A DNA stretch of 64,000 nt from an uncultured Paracoccaceae bacterium (lineage in GTDB: Bacteria > Pseudomonadota > Alphaproteobacteria > Rhodobacterales > Rhodobacteraceae): positions 186,001 through 250,000 of the forward strand of contig CANMPD010000002.1 of NCBI GenBank assembly GCA_947499635.1. The letters are read 5' to 3'. The notes under the pieces are model-generated. The model was not told the DNA's origin. It saw nothing but the letters and a program-made list of their open reading frames with translations, and did no database searches. Shown piece after piece: positions 51,357 to 63,131 of this stretch (its first letter is position 1; each line of letters opens with the position of its first letter). Both the position numbers and the translations under genes were made by a program.

Positions 51357-52432
51357 GCCTTATCGAGATCCTGCGTGAACGCATCGCCATAGACGGGCCC
51401 CTCAGCATTGCTGAATACATGCAGGAATGCCTGCTGCACCCGACCCATGGGTATTACACCACGCGTGACCCACTGGGGGCAAAAGGCGATTTCACCACGG
51501 CCCCAGAAATCAGTCAGATGTTTGGTGAATTGCTTGGGCTCAGTCTTGCACAGACATGGATAGACCAAGGCAGTCCCGCCTCCTTTGCCCTTGCAGAGCT
51601 GGGTCCCGGGCGCGGCACCTTAATGGTGGATCTGCTGCGTGCCACCAAAGCCGTTGCTGGTTTTCACGACGCCCTGTCGCTGCATCTTGTCGAAGCCTCT
51701 CCTGCGCTGCGAAAAGAACAAGCCGCGCGTCTTGGTGATTTTACCCCCCAATGGCATGAGACCATAGATGCGCTGTCTGCCGCCACGACAGATAAACCGT
51801 TGTTTCTGGTCGCCAACGAATTTTTCGACGCGCTGCCGATCCGTCAATTTATCCGCAGTGGTTCAGGCTGGGCAGAACGACGTGTTGGCTGGGATGGCAA
51901 CGCACTGATCTTTGGCCAAACAGCGCCCACCCCGCAGCCTGTCCTTGCCGATCGCCTCGCGGATACACAAGAAAGTGATCTTGTCGAACACAATGCGCCC
52001 GCCATACAAACCACAGAAACCATCGCCCGCCATATCGCAGCGACTGGTGGGGCCGCGCTTATTGTGGATTACGGCGACTGGAGATCACAGGGTGATACAT
52101 TACAAGCCCTACGTGCCCATGCCCCAACCGACCCATTGGAGGCGCCTGGGCAGGCGGATTTGACGGCACATGTGGATTTTGAGCCCATTGCTGTCGCGGC
52201 ACATCAGGCTGGATGCGCCTATAGCCGCGTGACACCTCAAGGCGTCTTTCTAGAGCGCCTTGGCATTACAGAGCGCGCAAATAATTTGACGGATAAACTG
52301 TCCGGCGACGCCCTAGATCAGTTGATTGCCGCACATCGACGGTTGACGCATCCCCAAGAAATGGGAAACCTGTTCAAAGTCATCGGGCTGTTTCCACAAC
52401 AGTCGCCACCGCCTGCAGGATTAAATTCATGA
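51353..52432 (+). CDS. MidA/NDUFAF7-like SAM-dependent methyltransferase
   Basis: 359 residues. The family hallmarks are clear: [44 protein letters not shown] (SAM motif I) and [19 protein letters not shown]7 methylates an Arg of complex I subunit NDUFS2; the bacterial target is unknown. The start at 51353 (ATGA overlap with lgt) is preferred to an in-frame start upstream within lgt. Likewise overlaps pgeF by 4 bp, giving an lgt-midA-pgeF operon. Confidence 0.92.
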
Positions 52433-53196
52433 CCCTCGAGATCATCACGTCAGACACATTGTCCCCTGTGCGTCACGGTTTTTTCACACGCCGCGGCGGG
52501 GCATCGTCAGGTATATTTGCCGGATTGAATTGTGGCTTAGGGTCATCGGATCAACGTCAAGCCGTGCAAATCAACCGTGACCGTGTGGCCCAAGCGATGC
52601 AGGTCACCCCTGACCGCGTCGCTCGCATGCATCAGGTCCACTCGGCCACAGTTGCAATCGTCGAAAACAGCGACGATATTTCTGCTGCGGCCCCCAAAGC
52701 AGATGCACTGGTGACCAAGACGTCAGGTATCGCGCTTTCTGTGTTAACGGCCGATTGCCAGCCGGTTTTATTCGCCGATCCCCAATCTGGCATCATCGCC
52801 GCTGCCCATGCAGGTTGGCGAGGGACGCTCGACGGTGTCCTAGAAGCCACTGTAGACACAATGATCGAACTTGGGGCCCAGCGCGCAGCGATCCGCGCGG
52901 TGATTGGACCGTCGATTTCGCAAAAAGCCTATGAGGTCGGCCCGGAATTTCACGAGAATTTTGTTTCAGAAAACCCTGATAACACTAAATATTTCACAAA
53001 AGGCAAAGCGGCAGGTAAATTTCTCTTTGACCTGCCCTCTTTGGGCGTTTCACGGCTGAATGCGATGGGTTTAGCTGCAGTCCAATGGACAGGCCACTGC
53101 ACTTATAGCGACGCAGAGCGCTTTTATTCTTATCGGCGAACCACCCATGCAGGCGAGGCTGATTATGGGCGTTTGATATCTTGCATCACGCTCTGA
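52429..53196 (+). CDS. pgeF: Peptidoglycan editing factor PgeF (YfiH, laccase-domain)
   Basis: 255 residues: HGFFTRRGGASSGIFAGLNCG, MHQVHSATV, LTADCQPVLF, AAHAGWRGTLDGV and the late GHCTYSDAERFYSYRR. The His-Cys-His metal site of the YfiH family is present. PgeF removes wrongly built muropeptides and YlmD-like members act on purine nucleosides. It is the third gene of the lgt operon. Confidence 0.94.
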   Translation: MTLEIITSDTLSPVRHGFFTRRGGASSGIFAGLNCGLGSSDQRQAVQINRDRVAQAMQVTPDRVARMHQVHSATVAIVENSDDISAAAPKADALVTKTSGIALSVLTADCQPVLFADPQSGIIAAAHAGWRGTLDGVLEATVDTMIELGAQRAAIRAVIGPSISQKAYEVGPEFHENFVSENPDNTKYFTKGKAAGKFLFDLPSLGVSRLNAMGLAAVQWTGHCTYSDAERFYSYRRTTHAGEADYGRLISCITL

Positions 53197-53280
53197 GTTG
53201 CCCTGCTCGTTGATCACAACAGATCGTACTTGGCGCAGTTTTGTGCCCTGTACCCGTGTCCTTTAAAATCACAACGCCCC

Positions 53281-53340
53281 TGTTGCCCGTACCGTTGTTG
53301 CCCCTACCGTTATTGCCTGTACCGTTGTTGCCACCTCACT
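53281..53340 (+). repeat. Degenerate 15-bp tandem repeats upstream of Hint gene
   Basis: Units TGTTGCCCGTACCGT, TGTTGCCCCTACCGT, TATTGCCTGTACCGT and TGTTGCCACCTCACT: three close copies and one partial. They lie 85 bp past pgeF and 123 bp before the Hint gene. Confidence 0.85.
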
Positions 53341-53462
53341 GCCTTATTGGGACCGTATTGCCCTGACATCTAAGTTCGGCACCGCGGACACCGGCGGCGC
53401 GAGCCGAAATTCGACGCTTCAATAACATTGAACCCTCGACGCTGTTTAAAGGACGTATTGGA

Positions 53463-54233
53463 ATGACGCTTGCCAACTCTCTGCATCGTGTAGCTGCAAA
53501 TGCGACTGCGGCTCAACAGTTGTTACGCGAAACATCTCATGGGTCCCCATCAAAAGCCGCGGTACAGCTGCGGCGTTATGAAATCTGTAGCCTGTTGCCA
53601 AACGGATCGGTTTCGGAAACCCGCCACATCGCCCCTGCACTTCCATTGTTTGAACACGCCTTCACTGCTTTTATGCGGGGGTCCTTGATTGAAACCGACT
53701 TTGGCAGTGTTGCGATTGAAGATCTGTGGCCCGGGGATCGTGTCCAAATTCATGACAACAGCTATCAAGAGGTTGTCTGGAAAGGTATGACCACGCTGGT
53801 GCCCGCACGAAACCAGTCACAAGACACAGACCTACGTCTAACCAGTATTATGGCGGATAGTCTGGGCATGCATAAACCCATATCCAGTCTGGTTGCAGGA
53901 CCTGCGGCACGCCTGCTGGCAACCCCCCCTGAATTGCGCAACACTGTGAAATCCGGTGAAATATTAACACCCGCTTATAAATTCCAAGATGGTATGAACA
54001 TATTTGACGCAGCTCCGCCAACTCCGGTGGATGTCTTTCACATTTGTCTGCGACAGCACGCCGTCATCAAAGTGGGCGGATTACCGTTTGAAACGTACCA
54101 CCCCGGCCCCGATGCACTGCGTACAGTAAGTTATCCGATTAAAACGCTGTTTTTAAATATGTTTTCACATGCTGAAAGCATCGCGGATTTTGGTCCACTT
54201 GCCTTTGAGCGTAGTCGCGACACGCAGGCATGA
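53463..54233 (+). CDS. Hint-domain protein lacking the usual Cys
   Basis: 256 residues. A Hint-type (hedgehog/intein, Hint_2) module occupies about residues 68-200: FMRGSLIETDFGSVAIEDLWPGDRVQI and YQEVVWKGMTTL, ending near YHPGP. In the typical Roseobacter form the first block is CFTPGT with Cys as first residue; here it is AFMRGS, so the nucleophile seems lost and autoprocessing is unlikely. There is no signal peptide. It is single and flanked on both sides by short tandem repeats. Confidence 0.8.
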   Translation: MTLANSLHRVAANATAAQQLLRETSHGSPSKAAVQLRRYEICSLLPNGSVSETRHIAPALPLFEHAFTAFMRGSLIETDFGSVAIEDLWPGDRVQIHDNSYQEVVWKGMTTLVPARNQSQDTDLRLTSIMADSLGMHKPISSLVAGPAARLLATPPELRNTVKSGEILTPAYKFQDGMNIFDAAPPTPVDVFHICLRQHAVIKVGGLPFETYHPGPDALRTVSYPIKTLFLNMFSHAESIADFGPLAFERSRDTQA

Positions 54234-54311
54234 ACGCACTGGCATGAACGCACTGGCATGAACGCGCTGGCATGAACGCGCTGGCACAAACCCCACCGGC
54301 GTAAACGCACT
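54227..54311 (+). repeat. 14-bp tandem repeats at Hint gene 3' end
   Basis: GGCATGAACGC(A/G)CT occurs four times in perfect or one-base-different succession (54227-54282), then two diverged copies (GGCACAAACCCCACC, GGCGTAAACGCACT). The TGA of the Hint gene is in the first unit. Confidence 0.92.
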
Positions 54312-54353
54312 GGTATAAACACAAGGGCATAAAACAGCCGGGAAAACCTTATT

Positions 54354-54854
54354 CTAGGCTTCCCGTGCCAAACGGTCTTCGAGAACGCTGAAGGGAACAC
54401 CCGGTTCGTCCTTCGCTCCGCGAATAACCAGAGACGTTTTGACACTTGCTACGTTTGCAGTGCTCAATAAACTGCCGGTTAAAAAGCTTTGGAAGGTCGA
54501 CAAATCCGGAGCCACGCATTTCAAAATGAAATCCACCTCTCCGTTCAACATGTGACATTCACGTACCAGAGGCCAGCTGCGACATTTGTCTTCGAATGCG
54601 CAAAGTTCCGCCTCGGCCTGACTTTCCAGGCCAACCATCGCAAAAACCTGAACCTCGAATCCCAACTCACGGGCATTTACGTCTGCATGATAGCCGTGGA
54701 TATACCCCGCCTCTTCAAGAGAACGCACCCGCCGCAAACAAGGTGGTGCCGAAATCCCCACGCGTTTGGCAAGTTCGACATTCGTCATACGCCCGTCAGA
54801 TTGCAACTCCGCCAAGATCATGCGGTCGATAGGGTCCAAACGAGGTGTGACCAT
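54354..54854 (-). CDS. Lrp/AsnC family transcriptional regulator
   Basis: 166 residues. An N-terminal winged HTH (LDPIDRMILAELQSDGRMTNVELAKRVGISAPPCLRRVRSLEEAGYI) precedes a C-terminal RAM/AsnC effector domain (VQVFAMVGLESQAE, VRECHMLNGEVDFILKCVAPD). It is divergent from trxB. Two direct repeats 21 bp apart lie in the shared region. AGGAG is 9 bases before the ATG. Confidence 0.94.
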   Translation of the reverse strand: MVTPRLDPIDRMILAELQSDGRMTNVELAKRVGISAPPCLRRVRSLEEAGYIHGYHADVNARELGFEVQVFAMVGLESQAEAELCAFEDKCRSWPLVRECHMLNGEVDFILKCVAPDLSTFQSFLTGSLLSTANVASVKTSLVIRGAKDEPGVPFSVLEDRLAREA

Positions 54855-54901
54855 AAGATATTCTCCTGAAAACGTGATTATTATAGCAGATTGACCTAGG
54901 T

Positions 54902-54933
54902 GCGCAACAATATTTCACTTTGGCGCAACAATA
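54902..54933. promoter_or_regulatory. Phased direct repeat in lrp-trxB intergenic region
   Basis: GCGCAACAATA at 54902-54912 and again at 54923-54933, identical, with a period of 21 bp (two helical turns). Same face of the helix, 47 bp before the Lrp start: candidate binding site for the adjacent Lrp-type protein. Confidence 0.5.
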
Positions 54934-55117
54934 CGAACACCATGACACGTTTAGCCTGTTCGTTCCCGCCATCCTGTACATAGCTCGCGTTCATACGGTG
55001 GTTACAGGCGTCAAAATTCGCTTATCTTTGAGACTAGGGGCTTTCAGAGTGGCTGTAGCGACGTTATATCGCCAGAACCGGCGGCAAGACCGCAGTGACC
55101 TAGTGCAAGGAAGTCTC

Positions 55118-56059
55118 ATGAGCGAAACACGCCACACCAAAGTTCTGATTATTGGCTCCGGTCCTGCCGGCTATACCGCCGCAGTCTATGCGTCACGCGC
55201 TATGCTTGAACCCGTTCTTGTACAAGGACTAGAGCCAGGCGGCCAATTGACCACAACGACCGAAGTCGAAAACTATCCATCCTTCATCGACATTCAGGGC
55301 CCCGAGCTGATGCAGAAGATGGAAGAACACGCCCGGGCGATGGGTACCGAAATTATTGGCGACATCATTGCCTCTATCGACTTTGATCAACGCCCATTTG
55401 TTGCAAAAGGTGACAGCGGCACCACCTATACGGCCGATGCGATCATTCTGGCCACGGGTGCGCGTGCAAAATGGTTGGGGCTGGAAAGCGAAGAGGCCTT
55501 TAAAGGCTTTGGTGTCTCGGCCTGTGCCACATGTGATGGATTTTTCTATCGCGGAAAAGAGATCGTGGTTGTAGGTGGCGGCAATACGGCTGTCGAAGAG
55601 GCGCTTTTCCTTACGAATTTTGCGTCCAAGGTCACCTTGATCCACCGTCGCGACACTTTGCGTTCGGAGAAAATTCTACAGGACCGACTGTTCAAAAACG
55701 AAAAAATCGAAACGCTGTGGTTCCACGAAATTGATGAAATTCTTGGCGATGAAAATCCCAAGGGCGTCACCGGTGTGCGTGTCAAACACACGCAAACTGG
55801 CGCAGAGCAAGTGATCGATTGTGCAGGTGTTTTTGTCGCCATCGGCCACGCACCGGCAAACGAGCTGGTGAACGGCGTTTTGGACACACATATGGGGGGC
55901 TATGTGGTTACACAGCCAGACTCCACTGCGACCTCAATCCCTGGTGTCTTTGCTGCAGGCGATCTGACAGATCACAAATATCGCCAAGCTGTGACCTCTG
56001 CAGGAATGGGATGTATGGCTGCTTTGGAAGCCGAACGCTGGCTGGCCGAACAAGAGTGA
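55118..56059 (+). CDS. trxB: Thioredoxin-disulfide reductase
   Basis: 313 residues. FAD motif [18 protein letters not shown], redox-active CATC in [15 protein letters not shown] motif [15 protein letters not shown] and C-terminal FAAGDLTD are all present. It reduces thioredoxin with NADPH in the cytoplasm. The start at 55118 (MSETRHTK) has AAGGAAG 6 bases upstream; longer upstream readings are not needed. It is divergent from an Lrp-type regulator. Confidence 0.97.
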
Positions 56060-56223
56060 ACGCTGTCTTCACCTAGACCCAAAACAACATAGATCTGCGG
56101 AGCTTTATCTCTGGTATGGCTCTGCAGACACTGTAATATCTCTAAAATGTGTCTGGGATCGTCCCCCGAACTGTGGCTAAATCACAAGGCATTTTGATAT
56201 TCAAATAATTAGGAACCTATGAT

Positions 56224-57963
56224 TTGGCGCATCGTCTGTGGCACGGAAATCTGTCGACCCGGCTTCGTACTATCTCTGGGTTGGTCCTATTTATCTTCGC
56301 ATTTTTCCATTTTTTCAATATCGGCATGGGATTGATCTCAACCGAGTCGATGGAAAGCATGCAGCGCTTGCGCGCCGGGATAACCCGCAACCCAATAGGT
56401 CGCGCGGTACTCTTATGGGCTATATTTACCCATATGGGATTGGCCGTGTGGTCCATCGCCGTCAGGCAACATTTACGGTTTAACCTGACCGCTGGCGTGC
56501 AGTTGATATTGGGCCTATTGATCCCGCTACAGCTCATCCCGCATGTGGTTCACACAAGCATCAGCAGTGAACTTTTCAACGCCAGTGGCAATATGCCGTT
56601 TTTCTTATTGCGCATCTGGAATAGCCCCGATGTGTGGAAACAATCAGCCCTTTTGTTGGTGGTCTGGGTGCACAGCTGCATTGGCCTGCACATGTGGCTT
56701 CGTCATATACCGTTGTGGCAAAAATCCATTCCCTATCTCATTGGGATATCTGTTTTAATACCAGGCTTTGCCTTTGCTGGGCTGATCACCGAAGGCCGCA
56801 CGATGGCCGATCTATATTACAATCAAGGTTATGGCGAGGTGATGCGCGCGACCTTTTATTGGCCGTCGCGCGAAGAGATCTCTTTCCTTGAATATATATC
56901 GATATTGCTTGAACGCGGCTTTCTTATTGTCCTTGTTGCCGCGATTGCCATCTTTGGAATACGATACCTCATGAGGTTGCGCCGCTCGGTACGGATCCAG
57001 TTTACGGATGGTCCAGAAATCACGGCAGAGACTAGTCACACGCTGCTCGAGATGTCCCAACAGGCCAATATTGCGCACGCAGCCCTATGCGGTGGCAAAG
57101 GCCGCTGTACGACATGCCGTGTCGCAATCATCGATGGCGCCGAGACTCTGCCAGCACCAAGCCCTGCAGAAGCACGTGCTTTGCAAGCCGTCGGGGCAAG
57201 CCCTTCCACGCGTCTGGCCTGTCAAATCCACCCCACAGCACCACTTACAGTCACGCGTATCTATCACGACAAAGACCAACCCCGCGGACGAGGTGTCAAC
57301 GGACAGGAAAAACCACTTGCCGTTATGTTCCTTGATATCCGTGGCTTTACCGCCCGCACCACAGATTTGTTGCCATATGACGTGGTGTTTCTATTAAACC
57401 GGTTTTTTGATGCGATTGTTCCGCAAATTACAAATGCAGGTGGTACGGTCGACAAATACATGGGCGACGGCCTGTTGGCTGTCTTTGAAACAGGCGAAAA
57501 ACATACGTCTGCGCGCTGCGCTTTAAAGGCGGTCCAAGGTATTGGACAGGCGCTTGATGCATTCAACACGCAATTGACAAAACAAGGCGACGACCCAATC
57601 AGAATTGGGATTGGATTACATCTCGGGATGGTGGTCCTCGGGGAGATTGGCGCGGCCAGTCATGCCCCACGCACATTAATCGGCGCAACAGTAAATGCAG
57701 CGAGCCGGTTGGAAACACGCACCAAAGACCTGGGTGTCGAAGCTCTGATTTCCAGAGACCTTATTGAAACAGCGGGAATTTCATTATCGCAGGACTGCTA
57801 TTCCAGTCAGAACCTGCGTGGGGTCGAGCACCCTATTGATGCCCTCGCGACAAAGAAGGCTGCAGAGCTTACCAGAATCCTTGAAGAAAACACCATAATC
57901 GCGCCCCAGGAGAGCTCTATTTTCACGGATGTTTCCCCATCGGACGTGCTGGCATCGCATTAA
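56224..57963 (+). CDS. cyaC: CyaC-type redox-regulated adenylate cyclase
   Basis: 579 residues. The membrane part (1-250) has six hydrophobic segments with His in or near them at 29, 70, 107/110 and 150/156, as in diheme-B membrane anchors of succinate:quinone oxidoreductase. A ferredoxin-like [2Fe-2S] domain follows, with C289, C295, C298 and C333 (CGGKGRCTTC). A class III cyclase domain starts near 364: FLDIRGFT (metal Asp 371), VDKYMGDGLLAVF (Asp 415) and NAASRLE. This matches S. meliloti CyaC, which senses quinone redox state. The start is TTG, set by AGGAA 7 bases upstream and a stop just before; a nearby ATG is out of frame. It is a single gene behind trxB. Confidence 0.88.
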   Translation: MAHRLWHGNLSTRLRTISGLVLFIFAFFHFFNIGMGLISTESMESMQRLRAGITRNPIGRAVLLWAIFTHMGLAVWSIAVRQHLRFNLTAGVQLILGLLIPLQLIPHVVHTSISSELFNASGNMPFFLLRIWNSPDVWKQSALLLVVWVHSCIGLHMWLRHIPLWQKSIPYLIGISVLIPGFAFAGLITEGRTMADLYYNQGYGEVMRATFYWPSREEISFLEYISILLERGFLIVLVAAIAIFGIRYLMRLRRSVRIQFTDGPEITAETSHTLLEMSQQANIAHAALCGGKGRCTTCRVAIIDGAETLPAPSPAEARALQAVGASPSTRLACQIHPTAPLTVTRIYHDKDQPRGRGVNGQEKPLAVMFLDIRGFTARTTDLLPYDVVFLLNRFFDAIVPQITNAGGTVDKYMGDGLLAVFETGEKHTSARCALKAVQGIGQALDAFNTQLTKQGDDPIRIGIGLHLGMVVLGEIGAASHAPRTLIGATVNAASRLETRTKDLGVEALISRDLIETAGISLSQDCYSSQNLRGVEHPIDALATKKAAELTRILEENTIIAPQESSIFTDVSPSDVLASH

Positions 57964-58189
57964 CTTGTGATTCCGGTACCACAACGTAAACCTGTACGCT
58001 CCAATTTACGGCTCGCGCCAATTATTCCGTTCTATATTTCGCGATTTTTCGATAACATTCGCTAACATGCACCACTTATAAAGCAGAAATGTCCTTTTTC
58101 TCTTGATAGGGTGGACAGCTGTCAAACAACCACGTTATTCCGCCGGAAACGCAGTATTGCACGATGGCCTAGGTAAAAAGAGATCCGGC

Positions 58190-59908
58190 ATGACCCAATT
58201 AAATAACTTAGCTCCAATCCCCGAGCTTTATGTATCTTATGACTCTGCTCAGAAGCTAAAGGTAGAAGCCGCAGATTTGAAGAGCTATGATCTGACGCCT
58301 CGTCAAATCTGTGACCTTGAATTGCTGATGAACGGTGGTTTTAATCCACTCAAAGGTTTTCTGTCTCAAGCGGATTATGAGGGTGTTGTTAAAAACATGC
58401 GCCTGGCTGATGGCCAATTGTGGCCAATGCCGATCACTCTGGATGTTTCAGAAAAATTCGCCAGTAGCCTAACAGCCGGCGAAGACATTGCGCTGCGTGA
58501 CCAAGAAGGCGTGATCTTGGCGACCATGACCGTCACAGACAACTGGGAACCCAACAAGGCGCTTGAGGCTGAAAAAGTCTTTGGTGCGGATGATGTTGCA
58601 CACCCCGCCGTTGACTACCTGCACAACCAAGCTGGCAAGATCTATCTGGGTGGCCCTGTGACTGGTATCCAGCAACCGGTACACTATGACTTCCGCGCGC
58701 GCCGCGACACCCCAAATGAGCTGCGCGCTTATTTCCGCAAAATGGGCTGGCGCAAGATCGTAGCGTTCCAAACCCGTAACCCTCTGCACCGCGCCCACCA
58801 AGAGCTGACCTTTCGCGCCGCACGTGAAGCCGAAGCAAACCTGCTGATCCACCCTGTTGTTGGCATGACCAAACCCGGCGATGTCGATCACTTTACCCGT
58901 GTGCGTTGCTATGAGGCGGTTCTGGACCAATACCCACAAGCAACAACCTCTATGTCACTTTTGCCATTGGCTATGCGAATGGCAGGTCCCCGCGAGGCGG
59001 TTTGGCACGGGTTGATCCGTAAAAACCACGGTCTGACCCACTTTATTGTTGGCCGTGATCACGCAGGCCCCGGCAAAAACAGCCAAGGCGAAGATTTCTA
59101 TGGCCCCTACGACGCACAGGACCTGTTCCGCGCGCACGAAGAGGAAATGGGCATCAAAATGGTCGACTTTAAGCACATGGTTTATGTGCAAGAGCGCGCC
59201 CAATACGAACCCGCCGATGAAATCGCCGATAAAGACGATGTGACCATCCTCAATATTTCAGGCACCGAGCTGCGTCGCCGTCTGGCCGAAGGTCTGGAGA
59301 TCCCTGAGTGGTTCTCTTTCCCTCAGGTTGTTAAAGAACTGCGCAAGACCAAGCCTCCTCGTGCCAAGCAAGGCTTTACCGTCTTCTTCACCGGCTTCTC
59401 TGGCTCGGGCAAATCTACAATTGCCAATGCGTTGATGGTCAAGCTGATGGAAATGGGTGGCCGTCCTGTAACCTTGTTGGATGGTGACATCGTGCGTAAA
59501 AACCTCAGCTCTGAGCTGGGCTTTTCCAAAGAGCACCGCGACCTGAACATTCAACGTATCGGTTATGTGGCCTCTGAAATCACCAAGAACGGCGGCATCG
59601 CGATTTGTGCGCCCATCGCGCCTTACGCCACCACACGTCGTCAAGTGCGTCAGGGTATCGAACAGTTCGGTGCTTTTGTAGAAGTCCATGTTGCGACTTC
59701 GATCGAGGAATGTGAACGCCGCGACCGCAAGGGCCTTTATAAGCTCGCGCGCGAAGGGAAGATCAAAGAGTTCACAGGGATCTCAGATCCTTATGACGTG
59801 CCAGAAACCCCAGAGCTGCGCCTAGAGACCGAAGGTACAGATGTTGATAACTGCGCACATCAGGTGCTGTTGAAACTCGAAGCCATGGGCCTCATCAACG
59901 GAAACTGA
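58190..59908 (+). CDS. Bifunctional sulfate adenylyltransferase / APS kinase
   Basis: 572 residues. The N-terminal ATP sulfurylase (about 1-380) has QTRNPLHRAHQELTF (the HxxH motif) and VGRDHAGPGKNSQGEDFYG. The C-terminal APS kinase (about 395-572) has P-loop FTGFSGSGKSTIANAL, the DGDIVRKNLSSELGF segment and IAPYATTRRQVR. It turns sulfate to APS and PAPS for assimilation and sulfonation. The start at 58190 is the family N-terminus, with only AGAG as ribosome site. A long leader (about 225 bp) contains a GACAGCTGTC palindrome at 58114. A strong bidirectional terminator follows. Confidence 0.96.
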   Translation: MTQLNNLAPIPELYVSYDSAQKLKVEAADLKSYDLTPRQICDLELLMNGGFNPLKGFLSQADYEGVVKNMRLADGQLWPMPITLDVSEKFASSLTAGEDIALRDQEGVILATMTVTDNWEPNKALEAEKVFGADDVAHPAVDYLHNQAGKIYLGGPVTGIQQPVHYDFRARRDTPNELRAYFRKMGWRKIVAFQTRNPLHRAHQELTFRAAREAEANLLIHPVVGMTKPGDVDHFTRVRCYEAVLDQYPQATTSMSLLPLAMRMAGPREAVWHGLIRKNHGLTHFIVGRDHAGPGKNSQGEDFYGPYDAQDLFRAHEEEMGIKMVDFKHMVYVQERAQYEPADEIADKDDVTILNISGTELRRRLAEGLEIPEWFSFPQVVKELRKTKPPRAKQGFTVFFTGFSGSGKSTIANALMVKLMEMGGRPVTLLDGDIVRKNLSSELGFSKEHRDLNIQRIGYVASEITKNGGIAICAPIAPYATTRRQVRQGIEQFGAFVEVHVATSIEECERRDRKGLYKLAREGKIKEFTGISDPYDVPETPELRLETEGTDVDNCAHQVLLKLEAMGLINGN

Positions 59909-59940
59909 TCTCATCTGAGCTCAGTCGTTTTTGAAACGAT

Positions 59941-59975
59941 AAAAGCCCCGCGATCACAAAGATCGCGGGGCTTTT
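59941..59975. terminator. Bidirectional terminator between sat-cysC and GST gene
   Basis: Perfect 15-bp stem AAAAGCCCCGCGATC and GATCGCGGGGCTTTT around a 5-base loop, serving both convergent genes. Confidence 0.97.
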
Positions 59976-60001
59976 AATACACATAAACGCGATATAATCC
60001 G

Positions 60002-60631
60002 CTAGCCTAATGGGATTTCATTAACCTTTTTGGGCTGATGATAACCGCGCTGCACGGCCGGACGCGACAAAATTTCCTGATACCAGCGGCGCACATTTGG
60101 AAATTGTGCAAGATCAACCTTCTGCCACTCATAACGAGAGACCCAAGGCCAGCACGCCATATCTGCGATAGAATAAGCCCCCGCGATGAAGTCTCGGCCT
60201 TCTAAACGTTCATTTAAAACCTTGTACAGGCGCTGTGCTTCCTGACCGTAACGCTCTTCGGCATAAGGTGCTTTGCCCGAGTTATACTTAAGAAAATGAT
60301 GTGCCTGCCCCAGCATGGGTCCAAAACCTCCCATTTGCCACATCAGCCATTCGATTACCTCTGCACGCGGGCCCGCCTCTTTGGGTAGGAATTTTCCATA
60401 GGTCTCAGCGAGATAAATCATGATCGCGCCGCTTTCCATCAGGGAAACTCCGGTTTCATGATCAACGATCGCTGGAATTTTATTATTTGGGCTGATTTTT
60501 AGAAACTCAGGCGCAAATTGCTCGTCCTTTGTTATATCTATAGAATAGCTTTTGTAGGGCAGCCCCAGCTCTTCTAATAAAATCGAAACCTTGCGCCCGT
60601 TTGGTGTGGTCCAAGTATAAAAATCAATCAT
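60002..60631 (-). CDS. Glutathione S-transferase family protein (YfcG-like)
   Basis: 209 residues: TWTTPNGRKVSILLEELGLPYKS, the PNNKIPAI loop and LMESGAIMIYLAETYGKFLP of the thioredoxin-like domain, then the C-terminal helical domain with MLGQAHHF and IADMACWPW. This matches the YfcG/YghU-related disulfide-bond oxidoreductases, which use glutathione without a Cys or Ser catalytic residue. It is a single gene with an A/T-rich upstream region (60632-60890). Confidence 0.93.
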   Translation of the reverse strand: MIDFYTWTTPNGRKVSILLEELGLPYKSYSIDITKDEQFAPEFLKISPNNKIPAIVDHETGVSLMESGAIMIYLAETYGKFLPKEAGPRAEVIEWLMWQMGGFGPMLGQAHHFLKYNSGKAPYAEERYGQEAQRLYKVLNERLEGRDFIAGAYSIADMACWPWVSRYEWQKVDLAQFPNVRRWYQEILSRPAVQRGYHQPKKVNEIPLG

Positions 60632-60890
60632 ATGACAACTCCTCCATTTCTTTAGTTTGTAACAGATCTATTGGTTTGACGCAGTCCAATTTCAATTATG
60701 AGACCCCTAGGGACACATGGTCGAAAAAATCCTGAAATGTTCGAATAAGACAATTTAATACAAATACTACGGAAAATATTGTTTATTTTGTCCGCTTTAG
60801 ACACCTGAAAATTCAACCCAAGACCGCATTAAATAGAAAATCATCTGCTTCTCTCTACATTTTTGATCGAATATAGAGACAACCATAAAG

Positions 60891-63131
60891 CTAGATCTCA
60901 CGCAAATAGTCCATGACAGCCGGACGTACGCTTTGTTCTCCGCGATGGCGCGCATCCGCGACGATTTTGCGTAAATCGGTCAAGTTCACGCGCATCATCA
61001 GGGATTTAACAGGTCCTATCGAAGCAGGTCGCATCGACAGACGCCGGATCCCCATAGCTGCAAGACAGACAGCTTCGACGGGACGCCCCGCATCTTCACC
61101 ACAAAAACTAAGCGGTGTCCCAGAGATTTCGCACCGCTCAACCACCCGTTCAATAAAGGAAAGAAAACTTATGTTCAGCGTATCATAGCGGCTGCGAACC
61201 CGTTCGTTTTCTCGGTCGGCTGCGAAAAAGAACTGCTTTAGATCGTTCCCACCAATTGATAGAAAATCAACTTCTTCAAAGAATTTAAGCGGTGCAAACC
61301 CCAGTGACGGGGTCTCGAGCATCGCGCCCACTTTCAAAGTCTTAGGCAAGACATGGCCCAGCTTACGTTCGCGATCCAACGTTTTATCCACCTCGCTACG
61401 TGCTTGCCGATATTCTTCGAACTGCGCAATGAACGGGAACATGATAGACAAAGGCCGCCCTTCAGCCGCACGTATTAGAGCCTGCAATTGCATCCGCATC
61501 ACGCCGGGTTTGTCCAAGCCAACCCGGATTGCACGCCAACCGAGCGCCGGGTTGGGCTCATCCGCTGGCGTCATATATGGCAGAACCTTATCGGATCCGA
61601 TATCAAGCGTGCGGAAAATAACCTCTTTGCCTTTCGCGGCGGCAAGAACCCGTGCGTAGCTTGCAACCAATTCTCCCCGTTTGGGCATTTGATTGCGGAC
61701 AAGGAATTGTAGTTCTGTGCGAAACAGCCCAACCCCTTCGGCACCTGAAGTTTCCAGAGATGGCAGATCAGCCATCAAACCAGCATTCATCATCAACTGC
61801 AGCTGCTCTCCATCTACAGTGATTGCTGGTTTCTCGCGAATGGATGTATAGCGTTCTTTCGCCTGCGCCTGCATCGCAATTTTGTCACGAAATGCAGAGA
61901 TCACCGTATCATCTGGGCGCAGATGCACCACACCTTGGTCGCCATCCACCAAGACATGATCACCGTTCAACGCCTCTGTGGTGATCTTACCCACATGGAC
62001 CAATAGAGGGATAGCAAGGGCGCGGGCAACAATTGCTGCATGAGACCCGACAGAGCCTTCGGAGAGGATAATCCCTTTTAGTTTGCGACCATAATCCAAG
62101 AGCTCGGCAGGGCCGATATTACGAGCCACCAAAACAGGATCATCTGGCATTTCAGCGCCTGTTTCACTGCCCTGCCCTGTCAAAATACGCAATAGCCGGT
62201 TCGAGAGGTCATCCAAATCCGCAAGGCGTTCCCGCAAGTAGTTATCTTGCGACTGCGCCATCCGACTGCGCGCAAGGGATTGCTCCTTTTCGACGGCAGC
62301 CTCGGCGCTAAGGCCACGTGCGATGTCTTCCTCCATGCGCCGCATCCAGCTTTTGGAATTGGCAAACATACGATAGGCTTCGAGAACCTGTAACTGTTCT
62401 GCATCGCCATTTTGGGACTGCGCGAGCATCTTATCCACCCCGACGCGCAACTCATCTACGGCCTCTTGTAGACGCTCACGTTCACGATCAGGGTCTTCGG
62501 CGAATGGGTTGGTGACAACGACCCGAGGTTCATGCAGCCATATGTGCCCCTCGGTTGCGCCCTCTTGCGCCACGCCGCCTTTGAGCAAAACAGATTGCTT
62601 GTGCAATGGGGACAGTGCTGCCCCTTCACCGACAAAGGCACCCAGTTCTGTCATTTCCGCAATAACCATCGCGACCACTTCGAGAGCATAAATGGCATCC
62701 GCAGAATAGTCGCGGCTGTCTTTGGACTGCACAACCAAGACACCCAGCATTTCTCCAAGGCGTTGAATGGGAATCCCTAAAAACGAAGAATACCGTTCTT
62801 CGCCCGTTTCCGGCATATAGCGAAACCCGCGCGCATTGGGCGCATCTGCTGTATTGATGACCACACCGCGACGCGCAACCCGGCCAACAAGCCCCTCGCC
62901 CACGCGCATACGTGTTTGATGAACAGATTCGCGGTTCAATCCTTCGGTGGCGCAGAGCTCGAGAGTTTCTTCGTCCCGAAATAGATAGATCGAGCACACT
63001 TCGGTCTTCATGCTGTCAGCAATAAGCGCGGTTATCTTATCCAATCGCGCCTGCCCGGCATCATCACCCGCCATGGCTTCACGAAGACGACCCAGCAGTT
63101 TACGGCTTTCGGTTTCGGTGTTGTTGCTCAT
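60891..63131 (-). CDS. ptsP: Phosphoenolpyruvate--protein phosphotransferase of the nitrogen PTS (enzyme I-Ntr)
   Basis: 746 residues. An N-terminal GAF domain (about 20-165, KTEVCSIYLFRDEETLELCA) is followed by the PEP-utiliser N domain, the mobile domain with phospho-His in GSVGSHAAIVARALAIP, and the PEP-binding TIM barrel (FRTELQFL, RTLDIGSDK, CGEDAGRP). It starts the PtsP-NPr-PtsN relay, which controls potassium and nitrogen-linked processes; NPr and PtsN are not in the window. The start at 63131 has AAGGGCC upstream. It lies downstream of lysC, a frequent arrangement in relatives (from memory). Confidence 0.96.
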   Translation of the reverse strand: MSNNTETESRKLLGRLREAMAGDDAGQARLDKITALIADSMKTEVCSIYLFRDEETLELCATEGLNRESVHQTRMRVGEGLVGRVARRGVVINTADAPNARGFRYMPETGEERYSSFLGIPIQRLGEMLGVLVVQSKDSRDYSADAIYALEVVAMVIAEMTELGAFVGEGAALSPLHKQSVLLKGGVAQEGATEGHIWLHEPRVVVTNPFAEDPDRERERLQEAVDELRVGVDKMLAQSQNGDAEQLQVLEAYRMFANSKSWMRRMEEDIARGLSAEAAVEKEQSLARSRMAQSQDNYLRERLADLDDLSNRLLRILTGQGSETGAEMPDDPVLVARNIGPAELLDYGRKLKGIILSEGSVGSHAAIVARALAIPLLVHVGKITTEALNGDHVLVDGDQGVVHLRPDDTVISAFRDKIAMQAQAKERYTSIREKPAITVDGEQLQLMMNAGLMADLPSLETSGAEGVGLFRTELQFLVRNQMPKRGELVASYARVLAAAKGKEVIFRTLDIGSDKVLPYMTPADEPNPALGWRAIRVGLDKPGVMRMQLQALIRAAEGRPLSIMFPFIAQFEEYRQARSEVDKTLDRERKLGHVLPKTLKVGAMLETPSLGFAPLKFFEEVDFLSIGGNDLKQFFFAADRENERVRSRYDTLNISFLSFIERVVERCEISGTPLSFCGEDAGRPVEAVCLAAMGIRRLSMRPASIGPVKSLMMRVNLTDLRKIVADARHRGEQSVRPAVMDYLREI

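Follow-up and report, generated by a model that had tools for sequence, protein, structure and literature searches.

The gene at positions 56224-57963 (+ strand) of the window, by which we mean the whole 64,000-nucleotide stretch of DNA from an uncultured Paracoccaceae bacterium analysed here, very probably encodes a quinone-responsive adenylate cyclase of the CyaC type, in which a six-helix membrane anchor with a tetra-His signature, a [2Fe-2S] domain and a class III cyclase domain are joined in one chain. This redox function is drawn from homology, and the heme, the cluster and the quinone response are ascribed to the protein by analogy with CyaC of S. meliloti. The protein is a typical CyaC, new for this organism and as a sequence, and of a kind already known. 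PMC10463352 states that S. meliloti CyaC (SMc01818) binds two b hemes, which quinone oxidises or reduces with a change in activity, and it draws a [2Fe-2S] cluster in the scheme of the protein; the layout seen by an earlier note on this DNA was therefore already known, cluster included. That note had already named S. meliloti CyaC, as a quinone-responsive cAMP producer of this layout. The gene places a redox-to-cAMP switch that was studied biochemically in a plant symbiont in a widespread marine bacterial group. The source genome is a far simpler setting than S. meliloti, for which 28 cyclases are given in PMC10463352, and a few deletions could separate cause from effect; the family alignment points to the exact residues for testing. 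Judged by title, no paper among those listed in a literature search deals with a cyaC-type gene in roseobacters, which implies no absence from print.

Sequence, predicted fold and active-site residues

The reading frame comprises 579 codons, is unbroken and starts with TTG, nine bases downstream of a probable ribosome-binding site read directly from the sequence (AGGA, 56211-56214, + strand). Homologues begin in the same alignment column with ATG (L018), GTG (L006, L008, L010) or TTG (L013, L016, L017), which supports the TTG start that the earlier note had chosen. The top promoter-like match ends at 56223, immediately 5' of the start codon, and was set aside; promoter-like sites (4 found, shuffle mean 5.3) and terminator-like sites (8 found, 7.1 in shuffles) both occur at about chance level, and an Rfam scan of 52000-63000 returned no family at gathering score.

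The protein was compared with CyaC of S. meliloti strain Ak57 (record CP090106.1, annotated cyaC), to which it aligns end to end with 33.7% identity over residues 13-550 (E 3e-100); by part, identical positions number 64 of 233 for the anchor, 37 of 91 for the ferredoxin part and 69 of 186 for the cyclase. His29, His70, His107 and His150 align with His27, His68, His105 and His149 of the S. meliloti protein, and Cys289, Cys295, Cys298 and Cys333 with its Cys283, Cys289, Cys292 and Cys327. All six catalytic positions (Lys411, Thr484, Asn491, Arg495, Asp371 and Asp415) also match, with Lys410, Thr484, Asn491 and Arg495 of S. meliloti CyaC corresponding to Lys411, Thr484, Asn491 and Arg495 here. 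The CyaC-type layout proposed by the earlier note is thus borne out, and the alignment that it had called for matches the tetra-His signature and the four Cys ligands in full. In PMC10463352, Lys410 and Thr484 were replaced in order to inactivate S. meliloti CyaC, and Asn491 and Arg495 were otherwise mutated.

Because a fold search with the whole protein gave cyclase structures and nothing on the membrane part, residues 1-345 were modelled alone with AlphaFold2 from 30 sequences. The model (mean pLDDT 90.4) contains six membrane helices (10-37, 57-79, 88-118, 136-159, 169-200 and 216-253), with top 19-mer hydropathy values of 1.69 to 2.37, which together form a membrane domain of residues 10-253 (56251-56982). 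Four probable heme ligands, His29 (56308-56310), His70 (56431-56433), His107 (56542-56544) and His150 (56671-56673), lie inside helices 1, 2, 3 and 4, respectively. The earlier note had proposed a six-segment anchor with well-placed histidines and had singled out histidines outside the membrane helices as the observation that would count against it; six helices were modelled and all four histidines are inside them. The direction of the helices suggests that His29 pairs with His107 on the outer (distal) side and His70 with His150 on the inner (proximal) side.

The model supports a predicted fold of the diheme fumarate-reductase subunit C for the membrane part. It aligned with quinol:fumarate reductase (QFR) subunit C of W. 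succinogenes (2bs3_C; Z 14.2, rmsd 4.3, 201 residues aligned) and with QFR of D. gigas (5xmj_C; Z 13.2, rmsd 3.2, 178 residues aligned), Z values that are to be read against the alignment tool's caveat that helical bundles scoring below about 13 may match by chance. Both 2bs3_C and 5xmj_C are diheme subunits. Foldseek alone placed a QFR subunit C (2bs4_C) weakly at rank 26 (E 0.23), and sequence profiles of the anchor matched diheme subunits weakly as well (5xmj_C, E 0.64; 6lum_C, an SdhC, E 0.15), so the link between the anchor and QFR rests on the second-look structure alignment. The Pfam family Sdh_cyt matched residues 15-72 with an E of 0.0064, under its cut-off. Genes for the flavoprotein and Fe-S subunits (frdA and frdB) are not adjacent, the adjoining genes being Lrp, trxB and sat/cysC, and for this reason the anchor is not counted among fumarate reductase components; it may nevertheless work like a diheme subunit.

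The anchor is followed by a [2Fe-2S] ferredoxin-like domain (residues 255-345; 56986-57258), in which Pfam Fer2 matched residues 265-338 above its cut-off (E 2.4e-8). Three of the probable cluster ligands, Cys289, Cys295 and Cys298, form a CX5CX2C motif (57088-57117), and Cys333 (57220-57222) is the fourth. Both the model (Fdx, 1i7h, Z 15.1) and sequence profiles show a resemblance to Isc/adrenodoxin-type ferredoxins. His285 (57076-57078), which stands four positions ahead of the first Cys ligand, is present in all 133 rows of the family alignment described below and in four stand-alone copies of the sensor half.

The class III cyclase domain spans residues 361-543 (57304-57852); Pfam Guanylate_cyc matched residues 363-503 above its cut-off (E 5.5e-13), and the cyclase part superimposes on Spirulina CyaC (1wc1) with a Z of 22.1 and an rmsd of 2.5 over 183 aligned residues. 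The four-Cys ferredoxin motif and the class III cyclase with metal-binding Asp residues that the earlier note had read from this frame are therefore both recovered. The metal ligands are Asp371 (57334-57336; 131 of 132 rows) and Asp415 (57466-57468; 131 of 131), the adenine-selecting residues are Lys411 (57454-57456; 127 of 131) and Thr484 (57673-57675; 131 of 131), and the catalytic pair is Asn491 and Arg495 (57694-57708; 130 of 132 and 131 of 131). The departure at Asp371 is accounted for by L136, which is cut at a contig end, and L149, whose frame is broken. Class IIIb cyclases have a Thr instead of the adenine-binding Asp and are stimulated by bicarbonate, and with Thr484 the window's domain has the residue that marks a class IIIb adenylate cyclase. 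A Gln occupies the position of Lys411 in three relatives, L024/L148 (one gene, in G050), L137 (G200) and L153 (G298), and the first of these also has a His at the position of the catalytic Asn491; judging from these replacements, the three are perhaps altered or inactive cyclases.

Conservation, spread and gene neighbourhood

The family alignment has 133 rows, the window plus 132 loci (L004-L024, L036-L115, L122 and L126-L155), and represents 124 distinct sequences, some genes being present under two locus ids. His107, His150, the four Cys and His285 are identical in 133 of 133 rows, and His29 and His70 in all 132 rows that have a letter there, L113 being cut by its contig. Eighty of the aligned loci were chosen by sequence patterns, one of which included two of the Cys; the His and Cys residues are kept in all 52 rows outside this pattern scan.

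Full-length relatives are present in 22 of 61 genomes, namely the source genome, 16 of 17 congeneric genomes, 1 of 19 from other genera of the family and 4 of 24 from other families. The only congener of the 17 lacking a full-length cyaC, G009, also lacks trxB at E 1e-80 and has sat. Of the 337 alphaproteobacterial genomes scanned, 93 encode the sensor half, and in two of these 93, G096 and G190, it occurs in the stand-alone form only. At least 513 places in the genome contigs collection encode relatives, and the best 80 of these are named mostly as Ruegeria, Leisingera, Phaeobacter, Tritonibacter, Shimia, Sulfitobacter, Tateyamaria and similar genera. Among the relatives is one from R. pomeroyi strain SZCCDBG043 (L056). 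In the plasmids collection, 166 records have a relative, 142 of them from Rhizobium, and the name cyaC appears in 2 of 60 plasmid rows among the matches listed.

In a quick tree of 69 hand-chosen rows, which was midpoint-rooted and carries SH-aLRT support only, the window protein groups with roseobacter sequences in a clade of 36 rows (100) and, more narrowly, with a set of 13 rows (98), of which it has the longest end branch (1.07). This branch could be taken to mean that the cyaC copy of the source genome is decaying and inactive, as could the Ser that follows His150 where relatives usually have Gly and the fact that the source genome yields no more than two matches to class III cyclases. 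However, the frame is intact and every ligand and catalytic residue is present; trxB of this genome likewise shows greater divergence; and pN/pS of cyaC (0.43-0.48 for four pairs with the window) lies inside the range of four other cyaC pairs (0.28-0.67), in a test that is rough, since synonymous sites approach saturation (pS 0.72-0.76 in the window pairs). Decay is thus unsupported by pN/pS, and we regard it as highly improbable; an intact CyaC-type cyclase is the reading that we retain. The corresponding pN/pS values are 0.14-0.24 for trxB and 0.09-0.24 for sat and, by this sequence measure, cyaC is evolving faster than its two neighbours, yet under constraint. Third-position GC of trxB, cyaC and sat in the source genome (55121-59908) is 0.54-0.58, far lower than in five relatives (0.69-0.88).

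The gene is preceded by trxB (55121-56059, + strand; its ATG at 55121 lies inside an ORF listed from 54920), before which an Lrp/AsnC-family regulator is encoded on the opposite strand (54354-54854, - strand), and it is followed by a bifunctional sat/cysC gene (58190-59908, + strand; ATG at 58190, inside an ORF listed from 58103). Among the best 80 of the at least 513 loci, trxB was seen at 78, and Lrp and sat/cysC at 77 each; wherever these genes occur, their order is Lrp-trxB-cyaC-sat. The missing neighbours are Lrp in L097, L113 and L114, trxB in L113 and L114, and sat in L060, L077 and L111, some of these cases being contig ends. A gene for a Hint-domain protein (PF13403) lies before the Lrp gene at 53463-54233 and is present in 62 of the same best 80 loci. 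One locus titled Nocardioides marinus (L069) has roseobacter-type Lrp, trxB, cyaC and sat genes at 53-91% identity, and its record is probably mislabelled or a mixed genome.

The earlier note had taken the position of the gene behind trxB and an Lrp gene as a clue to a redox role, and this part of its argument fails. Eighteen genomes of the same family have no full-length cyaC (G018-G036 minus G022); trxB is nevertheless present in all 18 and sat/cysC in 14, and in 12 of the 18 the two genes lie within 2 kb of each other on one strand. The neighbourhood was accordingly discarded as evidence for a redox or functional cluster. As trxB and sat stand together without cyaC, cyaC would be either a guest in an older neighbourhood or a gene lost from it.

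Cyclase-less relatives beside MscS-family channel genes

Four proteins with the six-helix tetra-His anchor and the [2Fe-2S] domain end after the ferredoxin part. They are encoded in G011 (L033:4598-5806, - strand), G096 (L156:7920-9077, + strand), G190 (L157:6974-8113, - strand) and G490 (L191:5020-6231, - strand), and none of them has lost any of the four His, the four Cys or the extra His. In each of the four loci, the sensor gene is followed directly, on its own strand, by the gene of an MscS-family channel about 650-781 aa long. The open frames of sensor and channel overlap by 22-40 bases; counted from its earliest possible start, the channel gene has a four-base overlap with the sensor stop in three loci, and in L033 it begins two bases beyond that stop. 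The sensor half and the downstream MscS gene probably form one operon. Two of the four have terminal-oxidase genes nearby: in L033 these are cytochrome bd genes, and in L157 they are COX1- and FixO-family genes, together with a Crp/Fnr gene. G011 holds both a full CyaC (L004) and the stand-alone copy. In the tree, the four proteins form one side of a branch (support 96), two of them with very long ends, and label shuffles were equally clustered in 74 of 500 cases, so that their unity is not certain. A search of 398 Pseudomonadota genomes, and of 43 genomes from a single order, yielded no new clear stand-alone copy; short frames appeared there in G999, G997, G1019 and G1012, and some of these matches lay at the very start of a contig.

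It is conceivable, though we hold it to be somewhat less probable than its opposite, that the tetra-His, [2Fe-2S] half is a portable quinone-sensing unit with several outputs, cAMP being one and an MscS-type channel another. If true, the cyclase-less sensor would feed a channel gated by redox state, and the window's cAMP-making version would be one branch of a wider sensor family. Judged by title, none of the papers listed in a search deals with a redox-gated MscS channel, from which no absence from print is claimed.

That the sensor half occurs without a cyclase also means that this module can work on its own, and thus that in the window's protein the anchor might merely tether the cyclase to the membrane, or move electrons for another purpose, with no part in cAMP regulation. 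Nearly all other sensor-half matches, however, lie in frames of at least 529 aa, long enough for a cyclase, the exceptions being in G253 (contig end), G115 (broken frame), and G323 and G267 (both near a contig's first base). Moreover, the activity of S. meliloti CyaC depends on the redox state of its heme, as stated in PMC10463352. A mere tether or an unrelated electron carrier is therefore very unlikely, and an anchor that controls the cyclase is the reading followed below.

Proposed mechanism and comparison with known systems

In the mechanism that we propose, two b hemes would be held in a four-helix core, one by His29 and His107 towards the outer side and the other by His70 and His150 towards the inner side. 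Electrons would pass between these hemes and both the ubiquinone pool and the cytosolic [2Fe-2S] cluster, and the redox state would be passed through helix 6 and the linker of residues 346-360 to set the activity of a cyclase homodimer. In S. meliloti CyaC it is oxidation that activates, according to the legend of Fig. 6 in PMC10463352. The resulting cAMP could be read by a CRP-like regulator of the same genome, encoded at C2:263189, about 19 kb downstream of cyaC and outside the window. Among solved structures, this regulator is matched best by the CRP/FNR proteins 4cyd and 4byy (E 8e-29); a further match is 7pza (E 3.9e-21), presumably S. meliloti Clr. The CRP-like protein would be the natural candidate reader of cAMP. 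The source genome has three cNMP-binding matches and two Guanylate_cyc matches in all. By eye, the second cNMP-binding protein (L125), of the Crp/Fnr family, looks FNR-like in its Cys-rich start, and the third (L124) is longer and looks like an ABC-transporter fusion. The second class III cyclase (L034, G000:C4:39000-45000) is encoded in a frame from 1992 and has 483 aa, in which Pfam found the cyclase domain alone.

The signal might be something other than quinone: O2, NO or CO at the heme, oxidative damage at the cluster, or bicarbonate at the cyclase. The Lys411/Thr484 pair is that of the class IIIb enzymes, whose stimulation by bicarbonate was mentioned above, and the cluster domain would face the cytosol if the N terminus does. 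On the other hand, the presumed heme His pairs are unvaried, which would fit bis-His hemes that leave no free site for a gas, and S. meliloti CyaC answers to quinones (PMC10463352). We consider a non-quinone signal unlikely, and quinone remains the signal that we propose for the window's protein.

The separate parts of the protein have counterparts in known systems. The ferredoxin domain has the CX5CX2C...C ligands and the fold of adrenodoxin/Isc-type [2Fe-2S] ferredoxins but, unlike these, it is built into a membrane sensor and has the unvaried His285. The anchor is like subunit C of type-B (diheme) QFR, such as W. succinogenes FrdC, in its predicted fold and its four helix His; however, it is fused to a ferredoxin and a cyclase, and its sequence similarity to such subunits is nearly nil. 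The catalytic domain is common to Spirulina CyaC and the class IIIb cyclases, although Spirulina CyaC shares the name but has a different sensor part. The closest counterpart is S. meliloti CyaC, described in PMC10463352 and, as cited there, by Wissig et al. 2019; it likewise unites a six-helix diheme-B anchor, a [2Fe-2S] domain and a class III cyclase within a single polypeptide. The two differ in their surroundings: a LysR gene (smc01817) precedes S. meliloti cyaC according to PMC10463352, and in strain Ak57 a LysR gene lies 5' and a TetR gene (rutR) 3' after two IS genes, whereas the window's cyaC has Lrp, trxB and sat/cysC as neighbours and, among its neighbouring genes, neither a LysR nor a TetR gene next to it. 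They also differ in their place in the tree, the window's protein being placed with other roseobacters in a clade apart from S. meliloti CyaC (SH-aLRT 100).
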